From NCBI GenBank assembly GCA_913009835.1, contig CAJVXH010000008.1, positions 1 through 39,073 on the forward strand: 39,073 nt of DNA, in the 5' to 3' direction. The notes beneath the pieces are model-generated. The model did not search any database, was not told the DNA's origin, and saw only the letters and a list, made by a program, of their open reading frames with translations. Positions within the stretch are counted from its first letter, which is position 1. Each line of letters opens with the position of its first letter. A program made the translations under genes and the position numbers. Positions 4,180 to 29,061 of this stretch are shown here, in pieces. The DNA is from an uncultured bacterium (lineage in GTDB: Bacteria; Electryoneota; Electryoneia; Electryoneales; Electryoneaceae).

Positions 4180-4293
4180 GCCCACGACATTTATGTGCGT
4201 GGATAATCCGCGCTTGACGAGCAAGCACGGGCCTGAACGAAGGCCGTCATCCTGAACAATAAGGGTGTCATCCTGAACAAAGTGAAGGATCTC
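4180..4293 (+). repeat. Composite repeat: module D palindrome, module E, module A
   Basis: CCCACGACATTTATGTGCGTGGATAATCCGCGCTTGACGAGCAAGCACGGGCCTG followed by GTCATCCTGAACAAAGTGAAGGATCT. Confidence 0.8.
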
Positions 4294-19460: not shown

Positions 19461-19465
19461 AGTAC

Positions 19466-19560
19466 GTCATCCTGAACGAAGCGTTTGTCATCCTGAACGA
19501 AGTGAAGGATCTCTCTTTTGACTCATCGTCATCCTGAACGAAGTGAAGGATCTCTCTTTT
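19466..19560 (+). repeat. Three module A copies in direct orientation (first truncated)
   Basis: GTCATCCTGAACGAAG at 19466; full copies at 19487 and 19528. Confidence 0.92.
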
Positions 19561-19923
19561 GACTTCTATAAATCATTACCGAACGGCAATGAAATAGCGT
19601 AATCATCCCAGTCCGGATTCCCTTCTTCAATCAAGTTGATTTTCTTTTCTCGCCGCCAACCCTTCAGGGTCTTTTCTGCTTTGATCGCATCGATTGCGGT
19701 CGGAAACTCTTGATAGTAAACGAGTCGGTCCATCCGGTATTTTTTGGCAAAACCTTCGACCAAACCGTTTTTATGTTCTTCCATTCGTCGATGAAGATTA
19801 TTGGTCATGCCGATGTAAAGACCTCGCGTTTTGTTAGTGAGGATATAGACGTAGAATCGGCGGATTGAAGGCATATTATTTTACCAAAATCAATGAGAGA
19901 TCCTTCACTTCGTTCAGGATGAC
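19528..19923 (-). mobile_element. Candidate GIY-YIG cassette bounded by 29-bp perfect inverted repeats
   Basis: Left arm 19528-19556 GTCATCCTGAACGAAGTGAAGGATCTCTC; right arm 19895-19923 GAGAGATCCTTCACTTCGTTCAGGATGAC; GIY-YIG ORF fills the interior. Confidence 0.55.
19566..19874 (-). CDS. GIY-YIG nuclease family protein, single domain
   Basis: FYVYILTNKTRGLYIGMTNNLHRRMEEHKNGLVEGFAKKYRMDRLVYYQEF...IKAEKTLKGWRREKKINLIEEGNPDWDD. Confidence 0.95.
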   Translation of the reverse strand: MPSIRRFYVYILTNKTRGLYIGMTNNLHRRMEEHKNGLVEGFAKKYRMDRLVYYQEFPTAIDAIKAEKTLKGWRREKKINLIEEGNPDWDDYAISLPFGNDL

Positions 19924-20009
19924 GTATTTAGTGTTCAGAGCGACGAACATGACGTTCAGGATGACGTATTTAGTGTTCAGAGCGACGAACATGACGTTCA
20001 GGATGACAC
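19913..20009. repeat. 42-bp direct repeat, about 2.3 copies
   Basis: TTCAGGATGACGTATTTAGTGTTCAGAGCGACGAACATGACG starting at 19913, 19955 and (partial) 19997. Confidence 0.93.
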
Positions 20010-20061
20010 TATCCTTGCCTGTATTGGCTTTTCCTACACTGTTGCAATAAGGTCAACACCG

Positions 20062-20087
20062 AGATCCTTCACTTCGTTCAGGATGAC
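20062..20087 (-). repeat. Module A (reverse orientation)
   Basis: AGATCCTTCACTTCGTTCAGGATGAC. Confidence 0.9.
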
Positions 20088-20191
20088 GAGTATGCCCCAT
20101 GATGATGACGAGTATGCCCCATGATGATGACGAGTATGCCCCATGATGATGACGAGTATACCCCATGATGATGACGAGTATGCCCCATGAT
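20082..20191. repeat. 22-bp tandem repeat, 5 units
   Basis: GATGACGAGTATGCCCCATGAT starting at 20082, 20104, 20126, 20148, 20170. Confidence 0.95.
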
Positions 20192-20209
20192 GATTGTGTG
20201 CTGAGCCAG

Positions 20210-22543: not shown

Positions 22544-22600
22544 GGTGTCCGATACCAGAATTACTGAGTCCGTTACTCGAATTACTTGAAGTGGTCGGCG

Positions 22601-23179
22601 TACTCATCCTGCCTGAGCGTCATCCGCCTGAGCGTCATCCGCCTGAGCGTCATCCTGCCTGAGCGTCATCCGCCTGAGCGTCATCCTGAACGAAGTGAAG
22701 GATCTCGGCGTTGACCTTTGGATAATCCCAGACATAAATGTCTGGGGCACGAAATCGCGTCATCCTGCCTGAGCGTCATCCTGCCTGAGCGTCATCCTGA
22801 ACGAAGTGAAGGATCTCGGCGTTGACCTTTGGATAATCCCAGACATAAATGTCTGGGGCACGAAATCGCGTCATCCTGCCTGAGCGTCATCCTGAACGAA
22901 GTGAAGGATCTCGGCGTTGACCTGCATTTCATCCCAGACATAAATGTCTGGGGCACGAAATCGCGTCATCCGCCTGAGAGCGTCATCCGCCTGAGCGTCA
23001 TCCTGCCTGAGCGTCATCCTGAACGAAGTGAAGGATCTCGGCGTTGACCTGCATTTCATCCCAGACATAAATGTCTGGGGCACGAAATCGCGTCATCCGC
23101 CTGAGAGCGTCATCCTGAACGAAGTGAAGGATCTCGGCGTTGACCTTTGGATAATCCCAGACATAAATGTCTGGGGCAT
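22601..23179. repeat. Large composite array: five A-B-C copies with intervening 15/17-bp GCGTCATCC(TG)CCTGA reiterations
   Basis: Five module A copies, each followed by TTGACCTTTGGATAATCC or TTGACCTGCATTTCATCC and CCCAGACATAAATGTCTGGGGCA. Confidence 0.95.
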
Positions 23180-23202
23180 GAACGTAACCGCATTCATGTG
23201 AA

Positions 23203-23997
23203 CTAGAGCGTAAAGGCTTCAACGTACACGATTTTCAACGAGCGCCCCATACCTTGTGTCTCAACGCTGGTATTGAGCAAGTCGTACACATCAAACTGAA
23301 TCGCTAAAGATTTGGCGAACGAGAATCGAACGGCCGCGTTCAGATAACCGAATTCACCCTCGCCGAATCCGTCTCCGTCGATATTATCATCGAGTGCCAG
23401 GTCATACTCGGCAACGAATGTCAACTGTTCGTTGAGGCTGAAGTCCACTCCCATGAAACCATCCCAGCCCCGTTGTTCCTGCACTTCGATAGTGTTGTAG
23501 TTAATCCCAGCGTGAATGCCGAAGCCTCCATACTCTGAACGGAAATTCCGCGAAACTACTGCATATGCTCCCGGCGCCTTATAGAGGTAACGTTTCTGAT
23601 CCATGTACCACGGTCCATACCCCTGCATCTGGTAACCAACAGTGATGGCGGGCAGTGTCATGGACTCCTCGATGATCCGATACTTGACCGTGACTCCCGG
23701 TAATTCGTTACCATCGAGCTCCTTATACCCCAGTACATGCTGTCCACCGTAGGAGATGCCGAACATGAACCGGTGAAACAGTCCCACTCCGAGCCCTGCC
23801 TGCAGGCCTCCATCGCCGGCCACACGCATGTCCAGACCATACTGCGCTTGCTTCAGGGTTCCGGCGGTAGGATTGAGCACCAGTTCCTGCATCTCAAGTG
23901 CGGATGCCGGTTCCTGGGTTTGGGCAGATGATGGCAGCACGAACAGACTACAGATGAACATGCAACTCAGAAGTGACAGTAACCCACAGCGTGGCAT
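23203..23997 (-). CDS. Outer membrane beta-barrel protein, uncharacterised
   Basis: Signal peptide MPRCGLLSLLSCMFICSLFVLPSSAQ; C-terminal barrel-like strands (DFSLNEQLTFVAEYDLALDDN, AAVRFSFAKSLAIQFDVYDLL). Confidence 0.6.
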   Translation of the reverse strand: MPRCGLLSLLSCMFICSLFVLPSSAQTQEPASALEMQELVLNPTAGTLKQAQYGLDMRVAGDGGLQAGLGVGLFHRFMFGISYGGQHVLGYKELDGNELPGVTVKYRIIEESMTLPAITVGYQMQGYGPWYMDQKRYLYKAPGAYAVVSRNFRSEYGGFGIHAGINYNTIEVQEQRGWDGFMGVDFSLNEQLTFVAEYDLALDDNIDGDGFGEGEFGYLNAAVRFSFAKSLAIQFDVYDLLNTSVETQGMGRSLKIVYVEAFTL

Positions 23998-24314
23998 GGA
24001 CAAACTCCAAGTTTGAACTTGTCTGGCGGGTGGTCCGCCGATCCATTGTTGAATATAGTGATAAGGGGAGAGCCCGTGGAAACTGTGTTGGGATAGAGAA
24101 GTATATGTTGGTACCACTCGTCATGGAGGTATTTTAGCCTTGCAACGGGGTGGGCATGGCACTACCTTCCCGCCTTCAGTGACAGACGATAGAGGAAAAA
24201 CTTTGATCCCTTATGCGGGGAGTTCTGGGTCATTTGATAGTCCAACGCGACTCTCAGGGAGTCACGCTGAGTCTTCGCTCAGAATCGAAGACGATCTAAG
24301 GAGATGGAAATCCG

Positions 24315-28976: not shown

Positions 28977-29061
28977 GTCATCCTGAACGAAGTGAAGGAT
29001 CTTGTAGTATGTCTATTATCAAAGAGATAACAGCGAGATCCTTCACTTCGTTCAGGATGAC
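28977..29061. repeat. REPIN-like inverted doublet of module A, 26-bp perfect arms
   Basis: 28977-29002 GTCATCCTGAACGAAGTGAAGGATCT; 29036-29061 AGATCCTTCACTTCGTTCAGGATGAC; 33-bp spacer. Confidence 0.95.

Follow-up and report, generated by a model that had tools for sequence, protein, structure and literature searches.

A GIY-YIG nuclease gene bracketed by inverted hairpin repeats, its likely target sites, in an uncultured bacterium and in other phyla

Results

The window, by which we mean the whole stretch of 39,073 nucleotides that was analysed, comes from an uncultured bacterium of the Electryoneaceae (contig CAJVXH010000008.1) and carries on its reverse strand a nuclease gene, P0001 (19566..19874), encoding a protein of 102 amino acids. 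This protein consists of one domain that matches the profile PF01541 (E=5.6e-17), as expected from an earlier note on this DNA, which had read it as a single-domain GIY-YIG nuclease. Membership of the GIY-YIG superfamily is given by the profile match and by an alignment in which the Tyr, Tyr, Gly, Arg, Glu signature is present. The catalytic-type residues Y10, Y20, G22, R30, H34 and E67 are intact, and each of them is kept in 136-138 of 138 homologues. At three other near-invariant positions of the same 138-homologue alignment P0001 differs from the family (E to Q at 55, R to A at 66 and L to Y at 92). The nearest solved structures by sequence are the UPF0213 proteins PDB 1zg2 and 1ywl, which are recorded as hypothetical proteins.

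The gene lies between two exact and inverted copies of a 29-nucleotide hairpin repeat, module A, whose GTC ends point outward; 30 nucleotides are identical when the flanking C is counted. One full copy occupies the gene's 3' flank, 9 bp from the stop codon (19528..19556, plus strand), and the other its 5' flank, 20 bp from the start codon (19895..19923, minus strand). These arms and distances bear out the earlier note, as does the identity of the arms with module A elsewhere in the window, where the 29-mer has 13 matches at up to 3 mismatches and 0 in 100 shuffles. In the window genome (3.59 Mb, 264 contigs), the 26-bp core of module A occurs in 129 copies at up to 3 mismatches, and a control pattern in 0. 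The same note had described a 396-bp unit of repeat, gene and repeat; its arms and gene stand, but the unit has no special boundaries, because full and half copies continue outward to about 19461 and about 20209. Beyond the 3' flank there is a second full copy (19487..19515, plus strand), a 41-bp tandem duplication of the inner arm, immediately preceded by a 5' half-copy, GTCATCCTGAACGAAG, and its filler (19466..19481, plus strand). Beyond the 5' flank, two 5' half-copies GTCATCCTGAAC lie within 42-bp tandem units (19954..19965 and 19996..20007, both minus strand), followed by a second full copy (20059..20087, minus strand) and by a short tandem array, GATGACGAGTATGCCCCAT.., read off the sequence, which begins inside this outer copy (20081..20196). 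Nuclease gene, repeats and tandem array together form an inserted block of 749 bp (19461..20209).

Elsewhere in the window, one full copy of module A has a 5' half-copy in front of it (4246..4292, plus strand), and two full copies separated by a short spacer make up a REPIN-like convergent doublet (28977..29061). A second repeat block (22600..23180, plus strand) contains module A five times in full, together with 5' half-copies GTCATCC(T)GCCTGAGC and a 20-bp palindrome, CCCAGACATAAATGTCTGGG. This perfect palindrome (or CCCAGACATTTATGTCTGGG) accompanies module A in composite tandem blocks genome-wide (22600-23180 in the window; loci L211, L212, L213 and L214). The window genome also holds a second short GIY-YIG gene (L160, G000 C96:4335-4535, and L002, 360-1390), which by eye sits beside an apparent DDE-type transposase gene; no module A-type hairpins were found near this gene on C96.

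Comparison with relatives reveals sites from which the block is missing. In G001, a genome of the same genus, the genes for a hypothetical protein (window 23203-24117), a porin, an aldolase, a small coiled-coil protein and a YhaM-like nuclease are contiguous, and a spacer of about 85 bp holding neither gene nor repeats stands where the window has its 749-bp block. The window's repeat block at 22.6-23.2 kb is likewise missing from G001, and in G002 and G005, members of the same family that do not carry the gene, the aldolase gene is joined directly to the YhaM gene. Empty orthologous sites, which the earlier note had recommended looking for, therefore exist. Since three relatives are without the block, the simplest reading is that it was gained in the window's lineage, and thus that the gene and the repeats insert into conserved clusters of genes. 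Between the window and G001 no alignable target duplication was found at the empty site, and precise excision was not seen. The two gene copies of G001 sit elsewhere, one of them between two complete doublets; around the copy on its contig C71 a symmetric pair of flanking copies was not found. In Azospirillum, sufB and sufC are separated by a homologue that has doublets on either side.

To place the arrangement in a wider context, homologues at 104 loci from Bacteroidota, Chloroflexota, Planctomycetota, Acidobacteriota, Pseudomonadota, candidate phyla and the window's relatives were compared with 771 other ORFs within the same loci. The motif GTCATYY is present on both sides within 200 bp, GTC outward, in 52% of the 104 homologues and in 0.6% of the 771 ORFs, a very large contrast between sets in which loci of the same genus are not independent. 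Any outward GTCATYY motif occurs at 88% of homologue loci and 21% of control ORFs, and inverted-match scores of at least 18 are reached by 33 of the 104 homologues and 5 of the 771 controls. The earlier note had staked its reading on the flanking copies being kept around other homologues and had proposed a comparison with other genes; the association survived the former test, and the latter confirmed the excess. That the nuclease gene is associated with the repeats in a general, specific and oriented manner is thus strongly supported. Repeat numbers are not the main evidence for this association, since across 99 genomes gene presence and the number of copies of the window's repeat are linked by an overall odds ratio of 3.6-4.5 but show no significant correlation inside the window's phylum. 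Two repeat-bearing genomes, G007 (24 copies) and G069 (25), have no short GIY-YIG gene, which gene loss would explain.

A passive origin of the bracketing would require only that the repeats act as recombination sites in which a horizontally moving gene became trapped, with no relation of enzyme to site. The repeats are indeed numerous and recombination-prone, and the dRS3 repeat of Neisseria is held to promote exchange (PMC3898611). We nevertheless regard this account as improbable: bracketing is seen for only 0.6% of the genes that share these repeat-rich loci with the nuclease gene, and the repeat sequences vary between genomes yet track the gene across phyla. The flanking copies are likely to be the nuclease's own target sites.

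The dispersed copies also have a preferred arrangement. Among the positions listed for four genomes, opposed copies within 150 bp of each other are convergent in 15 cases and divergent in 1. Doublet spacings recur within each genome (44, 49, 53, 59), and in G020 near-identical 79-bp doublets are dispersed at different sites. Convergent doublets, which are the REPIN arrangement (PMC3116915), have the orientation of the arms around the nuclease gene. The REP/REPIN repeats that accompany RAYT Y1 transposases share with the present system 5'-tagged short hairpins, convergent doublets and a repeat-flanked, low-copy enzyme gene, and differ in that the resident enzyme is Y1 rather than GIY-YIG (PMC3116915). 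Y1_Tnp genes are found in 78 of 99 relatives and number six in the window genome, so that REP-associated Y1 (tyrosine) transposases might move the repeats and the GIY-YIG gene be a bystander. We disfavour this explanation as very improbable, because no module A hairpin was found near the six Y1 genes that were checked (2 of 6 in G000 and 4 of 7 in G001), whereas GIY-YIG genes have repeats nearby.

The earlier note had proposed that the nuclease itself drives the spread of the repeats. In its fullest form, this would make gene and arms an autonomous unit, a REPIN-like replicator in which a GIY-YIG protein takes the place of Y1. The orientation that arms and doublets share, the recurrent spacings of the doublets, the near-identical doublets at scattered sites, and the absence of gene and arrays from the same sites in G001 all favour such a driver. 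On the other side stand the repeats of G007 and G069, which exist without the gene, the lack of observed target duplication or precise excision, and the behaviour of the gene: its paralogues within a genome share 45-81% identity, indicating that it was not recently copied, and it is often syntenic within a genus, as in Aquimarina. Rapid self-copying of the gene is thus not supported, and the gene resembles the low-copy, vertically kept RAYT genes more than an active transposon. Therefore, although the protein is plausible as a driver of repeat spread, the autonomous replicator strikes us as possible but doubtful.

The repeats of different genomes share a constant frame (GTC, AT, stem, small loop, complementary stem, AT, C) around a stem that is genome-specific, and even the two arms of one locus are frequently unlike in stem sequence. 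Of the gene-distal GTCAT sites, 66% of those near the nuclease gene and 15% of those far away are followed by a hairpin, and C closes the hairpin in 199 of 208 cases. There are two main classes. The 20-nt class has the form ATTCCNGC-GNAG-GCNGGAAT, and its inner pairs 6-8, which played no part in the selection of sites, are Watson-Crick in 43 of 47 hairpins, with three or four pair types at each position, as expected of covariation. The 21-nt class has a five-pair outer stem, a tandem GA mismatch, two pairs and a GNA loop; it includes module A (ATCCT / tandem GA mismatch / AC-GAA-GT, with a GNA mini-hairpin loop), and GNA loops are present in 16 of 19 hairpins of the GA/GA class. DNA mini-hairpins with GNA or GNNA loops on G-C closing pairs are exceptionally stable (PMC4686876). 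Because the inner pairs covary and the loops are of this stable kind, the evidence favours recognition of the repeat as a folded single strand. With nearest-neighbour parameters for DNA, the fold of a single module A strand is no more stable than that of shuffled sequences; such parameters may give too little credit to sheared GA pairs or to the GNA loop.

In front of a full copy there are often truncated ones, from one to several, each composed of a 5' half and a few bases of filler. Among the 427 distinct full copies from all loci, 49 have 5' halves upstream and 6 have them downstream, while 3' halves are found upstream of 2 and downstream of 0, in a search that needed nine matching bases and that shorter halves would escape. 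In 21 of 44 distinct half units, those inside one array not being independent, the match breaks off some two bases short of the hairpin centre, immediately ahead of the GNA loop; in module A the break is GTCATCCTGAAC|GAA. Tandem 5' half-copies occur in several phyla (window 19466, 4246 and 22600-23110; L088, L096, L105, L109, L205, L206, L214, L216 and L274). Nested insertion of one copy into the loop of another was considered and rejected, as it predicts downstream 3' halves and none were seen.

The asymmetry of the half-copies points to a nick near the loop, with extension from the 5' side. Because the ends that GIY-YIG enzymes leave are 3'-OH, the resident nuclease is a natural candidate for such a nick. 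The half-copies may alternatively have been produced by host processing of hairpins or by replication slippage, independently of the nuclease; SbcCD, for example, opens hairpins near the loop. This origin is a reasonable possibility, if not the one we lean towards, and it leaves the bracketing of the nuclease gene by its sites unexplained.

The dRS3 repeat of Neisseria, ATTCCC(N8)GGGAAT, is present in about 700 copies in intergenic arrays (PMC3898611). It conforms to the frame of GTC, AT hairpin AT, and C, and falls in the 20-nt class. With neisserial intergenic mosaic elements and dRS3 the window's repeats have in common this hairpin frame and arrays of paired inverted sites; module A differs from dRS3 in its tandem GA mismatch, its GNA loop and the shorter length of its outer stem. 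A homologue of P0001 in N. gonorrhoeae (45% identity over 81% of the query, E 1e-14), taken from a 2.17-Mb record filed as a plasmid, sits amid 16 dRS3 sites in 2.65 kb. Two such N. gonorrhoeae records of 2.17 Mb, NZ_CP119140.1 and NZ_CP119142.1, are labelled plasmids and are chromosome-sized. The main dRS3 sequence is also common in some Burkholderiales genomes, and a P0001 homologue is carried by 11 of 20 dRS3-rich Burkholderiales and by 2 of 20 dRS3-free ones; in G345 the homologue (L269) is bracketed by dRS3.

Discussion

A site-specific single-strand GIY-YIG nuclease of Neisseria, Ssn, whose target repeat is present in hundreds of copies, was reportedly described in Nature Communications in 2025, and thousands of homologues are said to exist. 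We take the N. gonorrhoeae homologue of P0001 to be this characterised Ssn. The window gene matches this description of Ssn, and is by homology and context a candidate for another member of the Ssn nuclease family. The two share a single-domain GIY-YIG protein and a gene surrounded by a high-copy repeat, which in the window would serve as the target; the window genome differs from the Ssn system in the sequence of its repeat, in its half-copy arrays and in its composite blocks. As an enzyme of this kind has already been described, the novelty of the present one is limited. Our literature search found no paper on an association of GIY-YIG genes with REP/REPIN, dRS3 or dispersed repeats.

The explanation that we favour on balance, with some confidence, is as follows. 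P0001 would be a small site-specific GIY-YIG endonuclease of the Ssn kind, and its recognition site would be the surrounding repeat folded as single-stranded DNA, consisting of GTC, a hairpin that opens with AT and closes with AT, and C. The folded strand would probably be nicked just 5' of the loop at times when replication, repair or DNA uptake leaves the repeat single-stranded. Once free, the 3' end could be extended into another copy, which would yield tandem 5' half-copies and added full copies. The gene would be kept between its own sites and, through recombination at these sites, might travel between genomes as a repeat-bracketed cassette, with spread of the repeats as a consequence of the protein's activity. 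Against this explanation stand the repeat-bearing genomes that have no short GIY-YIG gene, the non-significant correlation inside the window's phylum, the G001 gene copy on C71, the frequently unlike stems of the arms at one locus, and the unremarkable folding of the module A strand.

Many bacterial genomes are full of short hairpin repeats, and how these spread is an open question. The observations reported here tie a very widespread class of such repeats, including dRS3 of Neisseria, to a small nuclease gene that lies amid them. A broader claim, that a GIY-YIG nuclease rather than a transposase propagates REPIN-like repeats in many phyla by nicking 5' of the loop and 3' extension, with half-copy arrays as the fossil record and the dRS3 mosaic arrays as one instance, is offered tentatively, and we think it rather unlikely. 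A nick just 5' of the loop is a sharp prediction that a single oligonucleotide assay could test. The mode of repeat spread can be put to a direct test on the strength of the insertion evidence, the doublets and the one-sided half-copies.

On the Planktothrix agardhii plasmid NZ_LR882964.1 (L274), a homologue and its repeats are part of a defence cluster, with an MmeI-like restriction gene on one side and drmA, the helicase gene of DISARM, on the other.
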